From a virus, in IMG/VR virus record IMGVR_UViG_3300034092_001800, positions 1 to 22,176 of that record: a stretch of 22,176 nucleotides of DNA, one strand, 5' to 3'. Within the stretch, counting starts at the first letter, position 1, and each line of letters starts with the position of its first letter. The notes under the pieces are model-generated. The model saw nothing but the letters and a program-made list of their open reading frames with translations. It ran no database searches and was not told the origin of the DNA. The translations under genes were made by a program, and so were the position numbers. Below, piece after piece: positions 1 through 18,919 of this stretch.

Positions 1-38
1 TTTCCAGACCTTGCATATCCACTTAATCCAATAATCAT
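1..38 (-). CDS. P-loop kinase, probably deoxynucleoside monophosphate kinase (5' end only)
   Basis: Only the first 12 codons are inside the window, and the gene continues past base 1. They read MIIGLSGYARSG followed by AA, the first two bases of what would be Lys. This gives a Walker A loop, GxxxxGK, right at the N-terminus. A loop this close to the start, in this wording, is typical of phage dNMP kinases, which phosphorylate dNMPs for DNA synthesis. Other small P-loop kinases start the same way, so the substrate is inferred. The ATG overlaps the stop of the GT32 gene as ATGA, and an AGGGG Shine-Dalgarno-like sequence lies just upstream. The reading frame start is clear; the function is a modest-confidence guess. 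Confidence 0.55.
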   Translation of the reverse strand, partial: MIIGLSGYARSG

Positions 39-823
39 TCTATCCCCTTAACTAGTTTGTCTTCTATCCACTGCGTGTATCTTCCATCGTTCCATTTTTG
101 ACTTCCATAAATATGCTCAATAGCTTTATTATGAAATATCCTCCACCCATAAAAAGACTCTTCATCTTCCTGAACAGAGCTATAGCAATGAAATCCAAGT
201 TCTTTTGTTCTTATATATCCATTATACTCTATGGAGTCAAGTATAAGCGATAGGTGTCCGCATACACCATTATCGTCCTGCATATTACACTCATGTTTTT
301 CTTTGACTATACCAAGGCCATTATGTATACCCTCCGTCCAAACACCTGGACCAGTATGTATGTGTACAAAATGTTTTATTGAGTAGTCTGGATTTTTTAG
401 CCTATTAATCATTGCGTCAACTACCGCCTTCATTACTGGATGACCAGACTCTGCTGCAAAGGCCCATTGACAGAAGTGTAGGTTGTTTTCTGGACATACT
501 ACCATTCTATGATCTTGATTAATCCATGAATCTATGGGAGCCAAACACCTTGTATCTAGGTCTGCATACACCCCACCATATTTATATATTACCAAGTACC
601 GCCACATATCTCCACGCATTACTGGCACTGGTAAATTATCAAATATTTCTACATACTCTCTACCATATTCGGAAAGAATAAAGTCTCTAGCTTGCTGGTC
701 ATCCATGTATTTATGATCCCAGCCTGGATTATTTTCTGTCCATGTGGCCATTGCTTCAACTGCATAGTCTGGCAAATTATCAATTTTATCTTTATATGTT
801 TGCCATATTATTTTAGGTATCAC
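35..823 (-). CDS. GT32-family (Och1-like, DXD) glycosyltransferase
   Basis: A 262-aa protein that should transfer a sugar from a nucleotide-sugar donor. It starts with IPKIIWQTYK, the usual opening of the 'glycosyltransferase sugar-binding region with DXD motif' family. Around residues 69-93 it carries RGDMWRYLVIYKYGG followed by VYADLD, where D88/D90 form the metal- and donor-binding DXD. There is no signal peptide or membrane helix, so it should act in the cytoplasm. It lies directly after a GT25-type gene with a 4-nt overlap (ATGA), so the two are probably co-translated. Acceptor candidates are host or phage surface glycans, or modified DNA bases. Nothing in the window makes a hydroxymethylated base, so the acceptor is unknown. 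Family assignment is strong; substrate is open. Confidence 0.85.
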   Translation of the reverse strand: MIPKIIWQTYKDKIDNLPDYAVEAMATWTENNPGWDHKYMDDQQARDFILSEYGREYVEIFDNLPVPVMRGDMWRYLVIYKYGGVYADLDTRCLAPIDSWINQDHRMVVCPENNLHFCQWAFAAESGHPVMKAVVDAMINRLKNPDYSIKHFVHIHTGPGVWTEGIHNGLGIVKEKHECNMQDDNGVCGHLSLILDSIEYNGYIRTKELGFHCYSSVQEDEESFYGWRIFHNKAIEHIYGSQKWNDGRYTQWIEDKLVKGIE

Positions 824-1503
824 AATGGTTTCCTAACCTCATCTGACTGGAAGGTTGATTCTAATGCCATTAGTGTACATGGGAATTCAGATGTTGGTTT
901 TATTGTATAAACATTAAACTTATCTTGCTGTCTAAACATATACCAGTCTAGTGGTAGATTAAACATATCTGCATTTAGTAATAACTTTTTTGCCCCACTT
1001 TTATTGATAACATAGCATAGGCACGACCAATCTTGATACGCCCTACATATATCCCTAGCCCCAATATCATGAGTATCATTATATTTACCAAACTGGTCTG
1101 CTGGACTGAATGCGTGAAACACATCCCAATTTTCTGGCAACTGAGAAATATAATAGTTTATAAGAGGAAGAAAGTTTTCATTATGAACAATGTCATCCTC
1201 CATCAATATTAAATATTCTTGATCTGATTTTAAAAACTTCATCCATGCAGTCCAATTGCTTGCCCATATTCCTATTTCACCCATTTTCCAACCAGATAGT
1301 CCGTCTAGCTCGTACCCATTTGTGTCTGGCTTAAAGTGTGGATTGTCTAATAAAAATTTATCATACTCTTCTCTATTAGATATTTTAAATGTTGGCGTGT
1401 CTAGGACTATAGAATCCCCAGATAGATATTCATTAATACTTTCTGTTAATTTTGATCTACGGACATCAAGACCATCTGTATGAAAAACTTTATGTGTATA
1501 CAT
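820..1503 (-). CDS. GT25-family glycosyltransferase (LPS-type)
   Basis: A 227-aa protein resembling the GT25 family, known for beta-1,4-galactosyltransferases of LPS synthesis. The family pattern is visible: GEIGIWASNWTAWMKFL at about residues 75-91 matches the 'GEIGCxxSH' block, LILMEDDIV at 98-106 holds the acidic metal-binding residues E102-D104, and a later GAKKLL...LPLDWYMF block matches the C-terminal acceptor region. The usual SH after the first block is SN here. No signal peptide is seen. The ATG shares one base with the stop of the upstream 48-aa HTH gene (TAATG), and the stop overlaps the following GT32 gene by 4 nt. The pair looks like a small glycosylation cassette at the end of the replication operon. 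Acceptor unknown. Confidence 0.8.
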   Translation of the reverse strand: MYTHKVFHTDGLDVRRSKLTESINEYLSGDSIVLDTPTFKISNREEYDKFLLDNPHFKPDTNGYELDGLSGWKMGEIGIWASNWTAWMKFLKSDQEYLILMEDDIVHNENFLPLINYYISQLPENWDVFHAFSPADQFGKYNDTHDIGARDICRAYQDWSCLCYVINKSGAKKLLLNADMFNLPLDWYMFRQQDKFNVYTIKPTSEFPCTLMALESTFQSDEVRKPL

Positions 1504-5627: not shown

Positions 5628-5853
5628 TGCTCTCCTCTTCTGAATGTACGTGATCTTCATTTTCTTTATCCACAAGTCTGACGACAAAAGTTTTTTGGTC
5701 CTCGTCTAAGTCTAACATCATTTTCTTGTGGTCTAAATCATGAGAAAGATACTTCTCAATACTTATTGGAAGCTCACCCATAGTAGCGGTTGCTGCCAAT
5801 AATAATCTTGGCAGTGATATTTCTATATTTTTTATATCTGTTTGTTCTGTCAC
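5605..5853 (-). CDS. Small acidic protein of unknown function
   Basis: An 82-aa protein without a recognised domain. The N-terminal 30 residues look like a strand and a helix (IKNIEISLPRLLLAATATMG), the centre is charged and predicted strand-rich (KKMMLDLDEDQKTFVVRLVD), and the last 20 residues are a strongly acidic, probably disordered tail (KENEDHVHSEEESNESG). The tail overlaps the mazG start by 23 nt, so part of its composition may reflect the ribosome site of mazG. Its ATG overlaps the dnaE stop by 4 nt (ATGA). It could be a polymerase partner, or a regulator binding through the acidic tail, but this is only positional. Coding status is supported by tight operon spacing. Confidence 0.65.
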   Translation of the reverse strand: MTEQTDIKNIEISLPRLLLAATATMGELPISIEKYLSHDLDHKKMMLDLDEDQKTFVVRLVDKENEDHVHSEEESNESGPTS

Positions 5854-8800
5854 TTTATCTCCTTTATTGTTATTGTTCCGTCATCTGTTTTTCCAAACAT
5901 TAGTTCTACCTTGTGCCCTGGCTTCATCTTACCTAAAGCCCTGGCATATATTTGTGGGAATGCAATAGCACGTATTAACTTTTTATTAGGATCAGTTAAA
6001 ATTGTATGCGCCATCATTTTTCCAGCCTTAGTCTTATAGTTAGTAAAATCTATTACATAAAAATTATTATCGCTTAGATCAAATTTTTGTGAATACAAGA
6101 AGTTAACGAATGGGTCTGAGCGATCTTCTTTGACCACTTTATCTATTTCAACATACCTATGTATTCTATTATCTCCAACTAAGAAAAAGTACATCTGTCC
6201 AGTTTCAATTTGTGTTTGTTCATTATGGAATACACCTATAGAACCACTCTCATCAACTAACTCAATTCTTGACCAGCCCTGCCCACGCTTGATTGATTTA
6301 ACCATAGCCATAAATACAAATGTGCCCAGCTCTTCAAAATCCTCGAGCCTATTGATCTGAGATTTAATAAATGGGGTAATACCACTTATATCAAACTTAG
6401 GTATGTTTAAGTATTCATACAGGTGGTCTTTTTCTTTTCCAGTTCTTTGGTTATCGTCAAACGATGCGCCACCAATTGAATTAAGTGCATCCAAAGCTCT
6501 TGATGATATACCGCTTTTTTTCTGAGATGCTTTTTCCTTAAGGTCTGCGTAATTTTTATACGGTCTATTTTCAATAATTTTACGACCAATGTTATCTGAA
6601 ATATACTTAACATTAGAAAGACCAAATCTTATTGCATCTCCCTGTATCGTAAAGTCTAAATCAGACTCATTTACGTGTGGCAACAATATCTTAATACCAA
6701 GTCTCTTGGCTTCTATCAGATAATCTGTTCTTGCATCCTTATCGCCTTCATTTTTTAATAAGGCAAACATAAACTCTAATGGGTAATAAAGTTTTAGCCA
6801 AGCCGTCCAATAAGATAGTAGAGAGTAAGCAACAGCATGAGACCTATTAAAGGAATAGCCAGCATGAGCTTCAAAAGTATGCCATAGACTTTCCGCTGCT
6901 TCTTTTGATATATGTCTGCTTGCGCCAACAACAAACTTCTCACGGAACTGATCAAACTCCTTTGCATCTTTCTTTTTACCAATAATTTTTCTAACCTTAT
7001 CGGCTTCTGCCCAAGACATGCCGCCTAGGTGTACACAGGCTTGCATAACTTGCTCTTGATAAATAATAACACCATATGTATTCTCTGTAAACTCTTTCAT
7101 AATTGGGTGAATATATGAAACAGCCTCATACTTATTCTTTCTATTAATATAAGCTTGCCCAACAGTATTCATTGCCCCAGGTCGAACTAGTGCATTTGAG
7201 GCAGCTAAATCTTCGAATTCGCTTACACCCATTTTAATAAGTAGGTTTGTATAAGGAACCGCTTCAGCCTGGAATACACCCTTTGTAAATCCAGCAGATA
7301 AAGACTGAAATACTTTCTCATCAGTTAATGATATTTGAGATAGATCAATTTTATTTTTAGTTCTTTGTTCAATCATTGACACAGTATCTGAAACTACAGA
7401 TAATGTTTTTAGTCCAAGAACGTCGAGTTTAATAAGTCCAATATCTGCAACCTGGTCCATATCATATGCGACTACTGGAACACGACCAGAAACTTTATCG
7501 CTAGGATCTGTTCTAGTTTCAATTGGTGCATATGCATTCAGTGGCTTATTTGCAACAACTACTCCAGCAGCATGCATTCCTACAGATCTTATTCTTCCAC
7601 GAAGTTGTCTTGCTAACTTAACTACTTCTGGATATTTTAATCTAAACCATTTAAGATTTTCAGACTCTTCAAATTCTTCAAATGTGTCCACAAGCTTGAG
7701 AGCTTTATTGACCTCTCCAAGTGGCACCATGAATACACGGGCAGCATCACGGACAACACCCTTATCTTTAAAGTATGTAAATGTAGATATAGACGCTACG
7801 TTTTTAAATTTTTTACGAATATAGTCTTTTACTTCTCCACGTCTACGGTCTTCAAAGTCTGTATCGATATCTGGGAAGTCATTTCTTTCTTCATTAATAA
7901 ATCTAAAAAACAGAAGGTTGTACTCTATAGGATCAACATTTGTAATTCCTAATAAATAACAAACTAGGGATCCTGCTGCTGAACCACGACCTGGACCCAC
8001 TAAAATATTCTGAGATTTAGCCCAGTTAATCATATCTGAAATAACTAAAAAGTATGGAGCAAAATCTTTTTCTTTAATTACATGTAGCTCTTCTTCTAGT
8101 CTTACTTCATATATATCATTACCTAGCCATGGAGATGTAAGTTTTAATCTTTCCATAGCCTCCCAACAAAACTTTCTTACAGTATCGTCTGGGTCCTCTT
8201 TTGGTCTTGGAAGAATACTTAGCCCCTGATGAAACTTATATGTTCCTATTGAGTCTGCAATCAAAACAGTGTTGTCGTAGATATCGGACCTTGTAATACC
8301 TTGTTCAATCATTTGCTTTTCAATTGTTTCACGGTCCATAATGTATACATCTAGATCCTCAAAACTAATCTTTCTATCTGGATACAAATAATTAAATCTT
8401 TCAAATACATTATCTATTTGTCTAGACTTTTCAAAGTCTGCATCTTTATTTGGCTTGGGAGATGTTGATAGAATAAGCATTGCCTCTTCTAGAGCTCTTT
8501 CCTCTTCACATGAAAAATGGCAATCTGCTGTAACAACTGGTTTGATTCCAGTGGCATCTGCAATTTCTAATAGCTTATTATTCAGCTCAACTGGATTATG
8601 TGGCTGAATCTCCATATAAAAGTCATCTTCAAATGTATTCTTAAACCATTTTGCAAGCATCCTTGCTTCGTCTTCTTCGCCACGTTCAATTGCTTTTGAT
8701 ATAAGGCCATTCATACAGCCAGATAAAACTATTAGCCCTTCTTTATACTCCGCTAAAATTTCCCTATCAATTCTAGGTTTATGATAGTATCCTTCTGTCC

Positions 8801-9143
8801 AAGCAATTTCAGATAACTTATTTAGATTACGAAGACCTGCCTCATTCTTAGCCAAAATAATTATGTGATTGAATATAGAAGTGTTATCATCACGCTTACT
8901 TGTATCACGCTTATCAAATCTATCGGTTGCAGAAATATATGCCTCTACACCAAGTATCGGCTTCATGCCAAGTTCCTCGGCTGCTTTTTGCATTTCTCTA
9001 TGACTAGATAGGGTACCGTGATCTGTAATAGCAATGGATGTATGACCAAGTTTTTGTGCAGCACTCAGTAATTCCATTGGACTATTTAATCCGTCCATTA
9101 CACTATACTGTGAATGTACGTGTAAGTGTGTGAAGTTAGACAT
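5850..9143 (-). CDS. dnaE: DNA polymerase III alpha subunit (C-family) with PHP domain
   Basis: A 1,097-aa replicative DNA polymerase of the DnaE type, close to full length for the family. Residues 1-290 are a PHP domain in which the metal ligands look intact: H8 and H10 (HLHVHS), D41 and H42 (TDHG), E67 (GVEAY), H93, C143 (LSGCMNG), D207 and H209 (TADCHF). The palm has GPGRGSAAGSL at 383-393, D425 and D427 in PDIDTDF, and the third Asp D574 in IKLDVLGLKTL. The YSFNRSHAVAYSLLSYWTAW block (fingers), a helix-hairpin-helix-like region and a C-terminal OB fold (GQGWSRIELVDESGSIGVF) follow. An intact PHP domain suggests built-in 3'-5' proofreading. SD GAAAGG lies 5 nt before the ATG. A GC-rich hairpin precedes it. 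Confidence 0.97.
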   Translation of the reverse strand: MSNFTHLHVHSQYSVMDGLNSPMELLSAAQKLGHTSIAITDHGTLSSHREMQKAAEELGMKPILGVEAYISATDRFDKRDTSKRDDNTSIFNHIIILAKNEAGLRNLNKLSEIAWTEGYYHKPRIDREILAEYKEGLIVLSGCMNGLISKAIERGEEDEARMLAKWFKNTFEDDFYMEIQPHNPVELNNKLLEIADATGIKPVVTADCHFSCEEERALEEAMLILSTSPKPNKDADFEKSRQIDNVFERFNYLYPDRKISFEDLDVYIMDRETIEKQMIEQGITRSDIYDNTVLIADSIGTYKFHQGLSILPRPKEDPDDTVRKFCWEAMERLKLTSPWLGNDIYEVRLEEELHVIKEKDFAPYFLVISDMINWAKSQNILVGPGRGSAAGSLVCYLLGITNVDPIEYNLLFFRFINEERNDFPDIDTDFEDRRRGEVKDYIRKKFKNVASISTFTYFKDKGVVRDAARVFMVPLGEVNKALKLVDTFEEFEESENLKWFRLKYPEVVKLARQLRGRIRSVGMHAAGVVVANKPLNAYAPIETRTDPSDKVSGRVPVVAYDMDQVADIGLIKLDVLGLKTLSVVSDTVSMIEQRTKNKIDLSQISLTDEKVFQSLSAGFTKGVFQAEAVPYTNLLIKMGVSEFEDLAASNALVRPGAMNTVGQAYINRKNKYEAVSYIHPIMKEFTENTYGVIIYQEQVMQACVHLGGMSWAEADKVRKIIGKKKDAKEFDQFREKFVVGASRHISKEAAESLWHTFEAHAGYSFNRSHAVAYSLLSYWTAWLKLYYPLEFMFALLKNEGDKDARTDYLIEAKRLGIKILLPHVNESDLDFTIQGDAIRFGLSNVKYISDNIGRKIIENRPYKNYADLKEKASQKKSGISSRALDALNSIGGASFDDNQRTGKEKDHLYEYLNIPKFDISGITPFIKSQINRLEDFEELGTFVFMAMVKSIKRGQGWSRIELVDESGSIGVFHNEQTQIETGQMYFFLVGDNRIHRYVEIDKVVKEDRSDPFVNFLYSQKFDLSDNNFYVIDFTNYKTKAGKMMAHTILTDPNKKLIRAIAFPQIYARALGKMKPGHKVELMFGKTDDGTITIKEIK

Positions 9144-9162
9144 TTATACCTTTCTTGAATAT

Positions 9163-9190
9163 TTGTAGGGGCGGTTTCCCGCCCCCACAA
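9163..9190 (-). other. Strong GNRA-capped hairpin between ssb and dnaE
   Basis: On the minus strand the RNA folds into a 12-bp stem with one G-U pair: TTGTGGGGGCGG, loop GAAA, then CCGCCCCTACAA. The stem begins one base after the ssb stop and ends 8 nt before the dnaE Shine-Dalgarno. It is strikingly GC-rich in an AT-rich genome. No U-run follows, so a classic intrinsic terminator is not supported. Likely roles are mRNA 3'-end protection for ssb, processing, or partial termination of a type without a U-tract. Confidence 0.75.
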
Positions 9191-9191
9191 C

Positions 9192-9860
9192 TTACCACTC
9201 TACGTTACTAGATGAGCTATCTGATGATTGCTCTTCGGATTCTCCGACCATGTAGAACTTTTCTTGTTCCTCATATGGGATTTCCTTAACTGCAACCTTT
9301 TCAAGTTGGAATAATTCGTACTTTGATAGGTCAAAGGCTTCCTTGTCTTGGCCCAATGAAATACCTACGTACTCTGTTGATGTGCCTGTACCACTTCTCT
9401 TTAGTCTCCATGTGAGATTTGATACGCTGCCCATTTCTCCAGCATATTCAATTAATGTTGGTGTTATTGATTTACCGCTTGTACCCTGAGAAAGAATTGC
9501 TACGTATGGCTCTTCTTTACCGTCGTCAACCAAAACGTTGATGTACAGCCTGCTACGTGCCTTCCAGCCAGCCTTGTAATCTTTACGATGTTGCTCACAT
9601 GCCCAGCAACGACCCTGGTCATCTGAAGTACATAATGCTTTTGATTTGTAATTTTTTGGGTTTGTGTGTTCTGCTGCTATAAAGCCTAACCCATTTTTTT
9701 CTAAATAATTTGGTGAGTCTGGATCTAATTCTTGTAAAAATCTGATCTTTACGCTTTCGCCGTCCGCTAGTTTTACCCAACGAGCTTTGCTACCTTCTGA
9801 ATCGCTTGGCTTATCTAGAGCACTATTAATGTTCTTAAGCCCTTTAACTATTGCCATCAT
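9192..9860 (-). CDS. ssb: Single-stranded DNA-binding protein (T4 gp32-like)
   Basis: A 222-aa ssDNA-binding protein of the gp32/gp2.5 kind rather than the bacterial SSB kind. The basic N-terminus (MMAIVKGLKNINSAL) could mediate cooperativity. A zinc site is built from C77, C85, C88 and H91 in ALCTSDDQGRCWACEQH, as in T4 gp32. OB-fold strands follow (SRLYINVLVDDGKEEPYVAI). The last 20 residues are an acidic tail, SEEQSSDSSSSNVEW, ending in Trp. An acidic tail with a terminal aromatic residue is the known docking signal of T7 gp2.5 and, with other sequence, bacterial SSB. AAAGGAAAA lies about 10 nt before the first of two ATGs. A promoter and two hairpins surround the gene, suggesting separate, higher expression. 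Confidence 0.82.
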   Translation of the reverse strand: MMAIVKGLKNINSALDKPSDSEGSKARWVKLADGESVKIRFLQELDPDSPNYLEKNGLGFIAAEHTNPKNYKSKALCTSDDQGRCWACEQHRKDYKAGWKARSRLYINVLVDDGKEEPYVAILSQGTSGKSITPTLIEYAGEMGSVSNLTWRLKRSGTGTSTEYVGISLGQDKEAFDLSKYELFQLEKVAVKEIPYEEQEKFYMVGESEEQSSDSSSSNVEW

Positions 9861-9887: not shown

Positions 9888-9904
9888 GAGGCTATAAATG
9901 CCTC
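9888..9904 (-). other. Short hairpin in the ssb 5' leader
   Basis: An inverted repeat GAGGC/GCCTC with a 7-nt AT loop lies between the candidate promoter at 9914-9942 and the ssb ribosome site. The stem is only 5 bp. In T4, gp32 represses its own translation by binding the 5' leader of its mRNA, so a leader structure here could serve similar control; that link is an inference. Confidence 0.35.
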
Positions 9905-9913
9905 TGTCATTCT

Positions 9914-9942
9914 AGTATACACCATCCTAGTAGATTTCCCAA
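9914..9942 (-). promoter_or_regulatory. Candidate sigma70-type promoter for ssb
   Basis: On the minus strand, TTGGGA (9942-9937) is followed after exactly 17 nt by TATACT (9919-9914), at the primase 3' end. It would start transcription about 45-50 nt upstream of ssb in a 66-nt gap, one of the longest in the window. The -35 agrees at 4 of 6 positions and the -10 at 5 of 6. The match was found by eye. Confidence 0.42.
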
Positions 9943-16219: not shown

Positions 16220-18919
16220 TTACGATTCAAGAGCGTCAAGCCTGGCTTTGATTGAAACTATGGAGTCATTTTGTAATTGTATTATCTTTAATAGTCCTGG
16301 TATTAAGAAGTCGCTGTTCCATCTTTGTGGCGTACCATCTGAATCACGATCTACTGCTATAGGATAAACTTCTTCAAGCTCTTCTGCTATAAATCCTGGT
16401 AGATCCATTCCATATCTGGCATCGTCTTCTGGTAAATAGTCGCTCTTGTATGTAAAAGATCTAACTGGCAAATTTAATAATGATATCGGGTCCAAATTTG
16501 GTTTTTCTGATATATCAACAACATTTTCTTTAAATCTTATACTAGAGCCAGAAGCAGCAACTAGTCTGGAAATAGGAGTTGTTGCATCGTTAACCCTTGC
16601 AGTACCACCGCTTGTTGAAACTGGGTATCCTGGATAGTATATAAAGCTATTAAATGTTGCGTTTGACGTAACAGCTCCAGAAGAATTTATTGCAAATCCT
16701 CCGTTTGCTAAAGACATTCCCTGTTGTCCAAGGAAGCTGTACCCGCCAAACCCGCCAGTACCTTGTACTGTAACATAGTCTGCAAACCTAACTGGCTTAG
16801 ATGTAAATATTGAAAAGACATTGTTAATTCCAGTTGTTCCAGCAAATAGTCTAAGGGTTCCTCCAGAGTTAATTAATCCATCTGAATCCATAGTAAAACC
16901 AGCAATAGTTCCAGTAGTTGAAGTTATTTCACCATTAAAAGATGCATTTCCAGAAGGAGTAAGGAATACAGTTCTTGTACCGCTAGAGTTATAAATTTCT
17001 AAACCACTACTGCTTAACTTCATTGTATTGACTGTTCCAGATCCACTATTTACAAGAACATTATTAAGATTAATTGTTCCAGTTGTTATTACTCCACCAG
17101 ATATAGATGTAACATTAGAGTTTACTTGGTTTGCAGCAATCGCTGTTTGCCCTCCAGTTCCAGCAATAGTAAATGTTCCTGTTGCAGTAAGATCTCCTGC
17201 AGCACTAATATTAAAGTTTGAACCTAAGCTAAACTGCCCATTGCTATACAATCCTACAGCCTGCCCAGAAGAGTTTGTTGTTGTTAAAGATGTGGGACCT
17301 AGTGTAAATCCACCAATTTGTCCACCTGTAGCAACTATCTGTCCAGTATTTGCTTGAATAGTTACAAGAGGACTTCCTCCAGTTGATGCATTGTATCCAA
17401 CCAAACCTAGGGAACTCATTTCGACACGTCCAGCCGTTCCAGTAACTCTTATAGCACCACCATTTACTATTAGACTACCTCCAGAGTTTATGTTTAGGTT
17501 TGATGTCATTGTTGAAGCTTGAGTTACATTTAATGAACCTTTTACTGTTAATGATGACCCGTCCCAAATAAGCTGGTCTTTTAAGCTAAACTTTCCAGCA
17601 GCGTCTATATAAAATGGCGTATTAGAGTTATTGTATACACCGCTACCATAATATACTTTTGGTAGTGTGCTTGCGCCATCAAGCACTATTCTATTTGTTC
17701 CAGTTGGTGAGTCGTCCGCTCCAACATATATAATTCCAGCAATTCCAGTATTTGTTTTAAATCTATCTACGTCTACAGTATTAGCCTGTATTTTATCTCC
17801 AACAATAGTATTTGCTGCTATTAAGTTACCAACAATAGTTCCAGATGTTATTGATGTTTCAGCATTTAGTGTGGATGGTGTTGTGGAAGCTATAGATGAC
17901 CATGGCCCAGAGTTTCCAGAAGAATCTGTGGCCCTAACCCTAACATAATATAATGTTCCAGTTGTTAATCCATTAAAGGTAGCAACTGTTCCAGTTATAA
18001 CAGTATCTTCTACTATAGTTGCAAAACTACTGGAAGTTGAAATTTGTACTTGATACTGACCCCTTGCAAGGTCTACGTCATTTTCAGAATTTCTATCCCA
18101 ATATGCAATTACATAGTCTAATCCTGAAATAGCAGACAAATTTTGTGGTGCAGCTGGAGCTGTCACATCTCCAGGAATTAAAACTGATATTGGCGTAGCA
18201 GGAACATAAGCGCTAGGGTTACTGCCGTCTGTAGCATTAACTTGAAAATAATATGTTGTTCCAGACCTTAAATTAAATATTCTTTTAGTGTTTTGTCCTG
18301 CCTGAATAAATAGATACTCATCCCAAACTGTTGAGCTTCTTCCATATCTAATGTAGTGTCCTAGTAAATCTGTAGAAGTTGACCCCGTCCAAGATGCGTC
18401 CACATATCCTGTTGATCCAGAAGTATCTGATGTATCGTTATATGCAAGGACGGACAGACCACTTGGTGAAGATGGTGGTGTGGTATCTATACCAATTGTT
18501 CCAGCAGACACGCTGTCTGATGCCTCTGAAAGTGCAGAAACGTTCCCACTTCTATCAACACCAGTAAATTTAAATGTAAATGGTCCAGTAACTCCTTCTG
18601 GTGGTACATATGTAACAACACTATTTATTGAGGCTATCGATCCAAATTTAGTATATGCACCCCCACTAGATACATAAACATCTACACGATTAAAGTCAAT
18701 TGGTGTTTGGTATGCTGTTTCAACCCACTTTACAGAAACCCCACCAATGACAGATGTTACGTTTGGTTTTGATGGAACTGGTGGTGGTGTAGTGTCTCCA
18801 ATAACTGTATATGTGAATGCTGGTGACCAATCTCCAGATAATCCATTATCACTTATAGCCTTAAATCTAAACGCCCATGTACCTGGCGTTAATCCAGATA
18901 TCGTTCTTTTTGTTGCCAT
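16220..18919 (-). CDS. Tail fibre with FnIII domains and S74 intramolecular chaperone
   Basis: An 899-aa host-contact fibre. Residues 1-40 look like the C-terminal half of a fibronectin III domain (ISGLTPGTWAFRFKAISDNG). Complete FnIII units follow at about 46-140, 146-248 and 252-350, each starting with a D-T/V-T-(P/A)-P linker. A stretch of repeats GTIVGNLIAANTIVGDKIQA (360-380) leads into beta-rich repeats with Gly/Ser/Thr and two 'G-x-I-x-GF-T-(L/M)' modules (VATGGQIGGFTL, TTGTIAGFTM), typical of trimeric shafts. The last 108 residues are an S74 chaperone that cleaves itself off after trimer assembly: S792 in GSSIRFKENV is the predicted nucleophile with K797. The gene starts right after the previous stop (TAATG). 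It should determine adsorption specificity. Confidence 0.9.
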   Translation of the reverse strand: MATKRTISGLTPGTWAFRFKAISDNGLSGDWSPAFTYTVIGDTTPPPVPSKPNVTSVIGGVSVKWVETAYQTPIDFNRVDVYVSSGGAYTKFGSIASINSVVTYVPPEGVTGPFTFKFTGVDRSGNVSALSEASDSVSAGTIGIDTTPPSSPSGLSVLAYNDTSDTSGSTGYVDASWTGSTSTDLLGHYIRYGRSSTVWDEYLFIQAGQNTKRIFNLRSGTTYYFQVNATDGSNPSAYVPATPISVLIPGDVTAPAAPQNLSAISGLDYVIAYWDRNSENDVDLARGQYQVQISTSSSFATIVEDTVITGTVATFNGLTTGTLYYVRVRATDSSGNSGPWSSIASTTPSTLNAETSITSGTIVGNLIAANTIVGDKIQANTVDVDRFKTNTGIAGIIYVGADDSPTGTNRIVLDGASTLPKVYYGSGVYNNSNTPFYIDAAGKFSLKDQLIWDGSSLTVKGSLNVTQASTMTSNLNINSGGSLIVNGGAIRVTGTAGRVEMSSLGLVGYNASTGGSPLVTIQANTGQIVATGGQIGGFTLGPTSLTTTNSSGQAVGLYSNGQFSLGSNFNISAAGDLTATGTFTIAGTGGQTAIAANQVNSNVTSISGGVITTGTINLNNVLVNSGSGTVNTMKLSSSGLEIYNSSGTRTVFLTPSGNASFNGEITSTTGTIAGFTMDSDGLINSGGTLRLFAGTTGINNVFSIFTSKPVRFADYVTVQGTGGFGGYSFLGQQGMSLANGGFAINSSGAVTSNATFNSFIYYPGYPVSTSGGTARVNDATTPISRLVAASGSSIRFKENVVDISEKPNLDPISLLNLPVRSFTYKSDYLPEDDARYGMDLPGFIAEELEEVYPIAVDRDSDGTPQRWNSDFLIPGLLKIIQLQNDSIVSIKARLDALES

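Follow-up and report, generated by a model that had tools for sequence, protein, structure and literature searches.

Intercistronic stems that stabilise the upstream message and leaky terminators behind capsid genes have both long been known. Stabilising hairpins such as those of the puf operon of Rhodobacter and the REP sequences in malE-malF require no U-tract, and the T-phi element of phage T7 is a partial terminator located behind the capsid gene. T4-type phages carry the promoter-early-stem-loop (PeSL) cassettes. The message of T4 gene 32 is described as the message of a single-strand DNA-binding protein (ssb) with a structured leader containing a pseudoknot (PMC3014915).

The hairpin described here is situated between the ssb gene and the gene for the alpha subunit of DNA polymerase III (dnaE) in a 22,176-base virus record, the whole of which is hereafter referred to as the window. 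The window has 24 called genes, every one of them on the minus strand, and the features of the ssb-dnaE junction are as follows.

9192-9860, minus strand: ssb, phage single-strand DNA-binding protein of 222 aa, matching phrog_9721 (E 1.7e-48)
9163-9190, minus strand: ssb 3' hairpin, with arms at 9190-9179 and 9174-9163 and a GAAA loop at 9178-9175
9149-9155, minus strand: dnaE ribosome-binding site AGAAAGG, named by eye, unpaired in the predicted fold
5850-9143, minus strand: dnaE, DNA polymerase III alpha of 1097 aa, beginning 19 nt beyond the hairpin

The ssb protein has no match in Pfam at an E-value of 0.001. Helicase, primase, ssb and dnaE follow one another here as they do in the annotations of the Streptomyces and Rhodococcus phages examined. 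At 60-80% DNA identity the ssb-dnaE stretch has matches in 123 phage records, of which 116 are from Streptomyces phages, and none of the 123 matches exceeds 80% of the query. WhiB was found in 13 of 15 long relatives of the window and in only one of 14 control genomes (Corynebacterium), which suggests that the host is probably an actinobacterium. The window also carries two glycosyltransferase-like reading frames at its left end (35-1503, minus strand) and a long fibre-like protein whose C-terminus resembles a chaperone (16220-18919, minus strand), all named by eye.

The original prediction, made from the letters of the window, had described a 12-bp stem with a GNRA loop and one G-U pair in the 48-nt gap between ssb and dnaE, a GC content far above that of the surroundings, the absence of a U-run after the stem and the dnaE ribosome site as the remainder of the gap. 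All these points were confirmed. The gap spans 9144-9191 and the hairpin RNA reads UUGUGGGGGCGG-GAAA-CCGCCCCUACAA (9190-9163), with all 12 positions paired, one as G-U; its GC content is 64% as against 36.5% for the window, and the bases right behind the stem are AUAUUCAAGAAAGG, which include the ribosome site and no U-run. The minimum free energy of the 61-nt hairpin stretch is -25.8 kcal/mol (z -5.1, equalled by none of 200 shuffles), and the hairpin is the most stable 50-nt stretch on both strands of the window (-25.8; runner-up -21.4). It possesses the GC-rich stem-loop of a canonical intrinsic terminator and lacks the U-tract, with three T in the 8 nt behind the stem (AUAUUCAA). The hairpin was absent from the output of a terminator scan requiring a T-run and likewise from that of an inverted-repeat search. 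Rfam gave no match in the window at the gathering score, which speaks against a known RNA family, and sequestration of the dnaE ribosome site by the hairpin is ruled out by the unpaired state of that site in the predicted fold.

The window hairpin, a GC-rich stem without a U-tract, resembles the puf and REP hairpins in its position: it separates a gene presumably needed in bulk from one presumably needed in few copies, the two probably being co-transcribed, and no promoter was found for the second. It differs from them in belonging to a phage and in not being a repeated REP sequence. The core stem pattern occurs at a single site in the 22-kb record, possibly a genome fragment, even with up to three mismatches allowed, whereas REP/BIME elements are recognised by many related palindrome copies; a repeat element is thereby rejected for this record. 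In common with T-phi of T7, the hairpin follows an abundant gene and the downstream genes would still be expressed, but it lacks a U-tract and a host-type polymerase is presumed to transcribe it. The PeSL cassettes resemble the relatives of the window in which a stem-loop is joined to a promoter (19 of 62 hairpin-bearing ends), whereas no promoter was found at the window's own copy, which is therefore not such a cassette. By analogy, the closest functional parallel is the T4 gene 32 message (PMC3014915), which is likewise an ssb message with a structured leader; the leader in the window is however a short hairpin and not a pseudoknot, and the likeness rests on the layout of the message and not on kinship of the proteins. 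Among the matches listed, the titles and abstract beginnings of the literature on PeSL and on Streptomyces phage transcriptomes hold nothing on the ssb-dnaE junction, and a word search of the Rhodococcus phage WC1 transcriptome paper returned no word containing 'terminat'.

Relatives were collected from IMG/VR by scans with dnaE (67 loci) and with ssb (the best 80 of 366 loci, hence the counts describe close relatives), many contigs being common to both. Both ssb and dnaE are present in 138 of the resulting 150 sequences, the window included. Distinct ssb 3' ends were defined by distinct first 60 nt past the ssb stop, giving 86 ends that include the window type (L079) and the isolated phage Francob. 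An end was considered hairpin-bearing when an uninterrupted stem of at least 7 bp with at least five G-C pairs lay within 62 nt of the stop. One relative with an interrupted stem (L050) was counted as hairpin-bearing by eye in the architecture classes and left out of the hairpin, promoter, distance and U-tract counts.

A hairpin was identified at 62 of the 86 distinct ssb ends, as compared with five of 2000 Markov sequences. In these 62 ends the stem starts at a median of 7 nt and a maximum of 24 nt past the ssb stop, and dnaE starts 12-512 nt behind the stem. The hairpin was also found behind ssb in all 11 isolated relatives inspected (ten hand-picked across genera, and Francob), which were drawn from 136 phage records with an ssb match, 40 of them listed. 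However, 23 of the 86 ends have no hairpin even under a laxer limit, and the hairpin is therefore a dispensable element. An essential element is ruled out by the 22 ends that have neither hairpin nor tRNA, a state for which the well-supported branches of the tree force at least three changes.

Covariation in related phages, which the original prediction had put forward as a check, gave strong support, with two-sided changes at all ten of the stem pairs counted in 35 loop-anchored distinct stems. These 35 rows were taken only from loci read on the plus strand with a four-base loop, and the choice for such hairpins inflates the pairing; the count of 62 in 86 is independent of that choice. In comparison with shuffled rows, the covariation measure was 0.98 against 0.21, paired cells made up 96% against 56%, and 116 cells changed on both sides against a mean of 31. 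Two of the five covariation measures, the number of pairs with two-sided changes and that of further pair types, were not clearly above the shuffles (98 and 135 of 500). When whole arms were shuffled among 25 distinct stems, 98.7% of the cells were paired as against 57%. In near relatives (L073-L077), whose ssb is 86-90% identical to that of the window, the stems are wholly rewritten with the pairing intact, which argues for continuing selection. Among 52 four-base loops, 27 are GNRA and five UNCG on the mRNA strand, with none on the other strand, and 16 of the remaining 20 are UAUU, every one of them in a stem that also bears a -35 box; as in the covariation analysis, the sequences are related and the events counted are not independent. 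The folding energy, the frequency of hairpins in the relatives against the Markov null, the stability rank and the covariation together rule out a chance fold.

The 86 ends fall into distinct architectures. The hairpin stands directly before dnaE in 24 (gap of at most 75 nt, no promoter found), is accompanied by a promoter in 19, by a tRNA-like sequence in 12 and by a gap of more than 75 nt with no promoter found in eight; 22 ends have nothing and one has a tRNA and no hairpin. A quick unrooted tree, with 25 of its 77 inner branches open, gives seven changes of the hairpin-only state and nine of the empty state. The promoter overlaps the hairpin in 19 of the 62 hairpin-bearing ends, an arrangement found in 48 of 1000 Markov sequences by the same criterion, and its spacer is 17 nt in all 19. 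In the composites inspected by eye the -35 box sits in the loop and the 3' arm of the stem, so that one stretch must work both as a stem and as a promoter. Such composites, in which a TAGAAT, TATGAT or TATAGT box follows the -35 box after 17 nt, include L085, L100, L114, L135, L142 and L147 and also L149 and L222-L224. Francob (L149) is among them, and Jada, Blueeyedbeauty and TunaTartare, read by eye, are alike. In L102, L126 and L147 the composite promoter is squeezed into 21-25 nt between the stem and dnaE, and the 19 nt of the window thus do not by themselves exclude another promoter type. In the window clade, a search for sigma70-type boxes gave no -35/-10 pair at the criterion in the interval separating the stem from dnaE. 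A sigma70-type dnaE promoter downstream of the window hairpin was accordingly rejected, and RNA from a TATAAA that overlaps the start codon would begin within the gene.

A tRNA gene with the anticodon TAA was called in all four loci scanned. It is 74 nt long and lies between the hairpin and dnaE in L122, L123 and L132, and in L084 the tRNA is kept and the ssb 3' hairpin is absent. In several relatives (such as L083 and L142) a longer stretch behind the hairpin resembles, by eye, a small reading frame, and in Francob an annotated HNH endonuclease occupies the ssb-dnaE slot behind the hairpin.

The tails behind the stems differ among these architectures. The 8 nt behind the stem contain on average 2.6 T in hairpin-only ends (at least five T in none of 23), 1.8 in ends with a tRNA (none of 12), 4.5 in ends with a longer gap (four of eight) and 5.0 in ends with a promoter (13 of 19), a comparison that is confounded since the short tail of hairpin-only ends holds the dnaE ribosome site and the tail of promoter cases is an AT-rich spacer. 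These values fit a tendency to retain the U-tract if a separate promoter serves the following gene. Counter to that tendency, six of the 19 promoter cases have fewer than five T, four of the eight longer-gap cases have at least five T with no promoter found, and only two of the 11 head-gene hairpins described below, each with a promoter-like box behind it, have at least five.

Similar hairpins were sought in the long relatives, of which 13 of 15 were taken whole, all but G005 and G007; neither the window nor G001 entered the hairpin counts. Nine long relatives contain 91 hairpins of at least 7 bp with at least six G-C pairs, 65 of them intergenic and 26 intragenic, as compared with nine in equally long Markov sequence. 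Another 12-relative set (records of 74-116 kb) was examined with gene ends taken from a simple purpose-made gene caller: of the 36 genes for ssb, the major head protein and a putative tail protein, 32 are followed by a hairpin, as are 52 of 1618 other genes. The hairpin lies no more than 60 nt from the stop of ssb in 11 of these relatives, of the major head protein (matching phrog_1623 and phrog_10) in 11 and of the phrog_2175 protein in ten; phrog_2175 is annotated only as 'protein with Ig domain', and we infer that it is a tail protein. Of the four misses, three have predicted stems with more interruptions or G-U pairs than allowed; the fourth is a true absence, behind ssb of G014, a relative that nevertheless has hairpins behind the head and phrog_2175 genes. 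The premise of the original prediction that the hairpin follows a protein needed in bulk thus gains independent support.

A TGNTATAAT-like box, a loose pattern with a few weak examples, is present within 60 nt behind all 21 of the scored head and phrog_2175 hairpins. The corresponding figures are 14 of 52 for other hairpins, one of 11 for those of ssb and 93 of 1570 for gene ends lacking a hairpin. The T content of the tail differs between the hairpin-only ssb ends and these 21 hairpins (Mann-Whitney P 7e-6). In G002-G004, G006 and G008-G015 the head and phrog_2175 hairpins are followed by a TGCTATAAT-like box (21 copies scored), an arrangement that looks like a fixed unit border of the late region.

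The other end of the ssb message carries two further features.

9914-9942, minus strand: candidate ssb promoter, TTGGGA-N17-TATACT
9888-9904, minus strand: ssb 5' leader hairpin, GAGGC-ATTTATA-GCCTC, just past the predicted transcription start

The 5-bp leader stem is fully paired around an ATNTA(T/C)A loop in 59 of 77 distinct leaders, and a TGNTANAAT box, TGATATAAT in 43 cases, lies upstream of ssb in 59 of the 77. An alignment of 39 leaders out of 56 distinct ones, from which L084, a leader without the hairpin, was omitted, shows all the cells paired, two-sided changes at three of the five pairs and a conserved loop. The exact ATNTATA hairpin occurs 33 times in 13 long relatives and the window, with 1.2 expected by chance per 116 kb; the window and nine relatives have such a copy at the ssb leader, and a TATAAT-like box stands upstream of all these ten copies and of three of the other 23. 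G014 and G009 hold more copies (eight and six, respectively), G013 and G015 carry a TACA version at ssb (L060 and L085), G006 and G012 have no exact match at ssb, and the distant group L028-L048 lacks this form of the ssb leader. The leader hairpin is a possible binding site for the ssb protein itself or a possible 5' stabiliser.

A strong stem at the stop of a bulk gene, loops of the unusually stable GNRA and UNCG types and the lack of a U-tract are together best read as a 3' barrier. The preferred explanation, to which we assign a probability of roughly one half (0.48), is that the hairpin works at the mRNA level and forms the 3' end of the ssb transcription unit, with readthrough tolerated, such that ssb RNA would outlast or outnumber dnaE RNA. 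RNA polymerase would start at the ssb promoter or further upstream and transcribe ssb and, at least partly, dnaE; cleavage would occur in the AU-rich AUAUUCAAG behind the stem, 3' trimming would halt at the GC-rich, GNRA-capped stem, and the ssb part of the RNA would be long-lived and the dnaE part lost faster, giving ssb in excess of polymerase. On this reading, hairpins of this kind probably help in yielding much ssb or capsid protein and less of the next one. Readthrough, cleavage, protection and the protein ratio are the parts of this explanation that we infer. Among the three mechanisms offered by the original prediction, namely protection, cleavage and partial termination, the evidence leans towards protection combined with readthrough. 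One ground is that, with no promoter detected behind the stem in the window clade, dnaE would appear to be expressed from transcripts extending through the hairpin; the other is the absence of a U-tract in all 23 relatives of the same architecture, a comparison confounded as stated above. The main rival, a possible reading in its own right that may also act alongside a 3' barrier, is a partial intrinsic terminator without a U-tract, at which some polymerases would be released and the rest would make dnaE. It draws on the similar hairpins at likely transcription-unit borders, since a promoter-like box behind every scored head and tail-like hairpin fits termination better, as well as on the promoters overlapping ssb hairpins and the U-rich tails behind some hairpins; where relatives combine a promoter with a U-rich tail, the same stem is better read as a terminator. 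The window stem itself, however, has no U-tract, and its bottom is U-rich on the 5' side and A-rich on the 3' side, the reverse of a typical terminator stem. Mycobacterial polymerase is moreover said, to go by the title of a 2014 study by Czyz, to require a U-tract, which counts against termination here.

The hairpin-promoter composites, present in Francob and other isolated phages, would also agree with the window stem being a relic of an ancestral composite, now of little use after the loss of promoter and U-tract in the window clade; the rewritten and still paired stems of L073-L077, which indicate continuing selection, make this improbable. Still less credible is a DNA-level element, a recombination or insertion cassette marking a slot for tRNA and small genes. 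The 12 ends with a hairpin and a tRNA-like sequence, the tRNA calls in all the loci scanned and the eight ends with a longer gap would suit such a cassette, but the loops are strand-specific RNA tetraloops, the stem stays within 24 nt of the ssb stop in all 62 ends so that insertions fall behind it, and no second copy of the stem exists in the record.

A broader proposal, on present sequence evidence rather unlikely to hold in full, is that the ssb-dnaE site switches in evolution among three states, namely a terminator-promoter composite whose loop and 3' arm contain the -35 box, a readthrough hairpin devoid of a U-tract, and an empty junction, the U-tract being retained chiefly if a separate promoter serves the following gene. 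Combined with the AUNUA(U/C)A leader hairpin, maybe bound by ssb for its own control, this would make a self-contained message setting the ratio of ssb to polymerase in a large group of actinobacterial phages. The window hairpin belongs to a known kind of element; what appears to merit testing is the pattern across the family. The case also shows that a terminator scan can overlook a conserved signal when the hairpin has no U-run. The many related phages provide a natural series of one junction, with hairpin and promoter, hairpin alone or neither, which allows the shares of the 3' stem, the U-tract and a second promoter in the ratio of two replication proteins to be tested.
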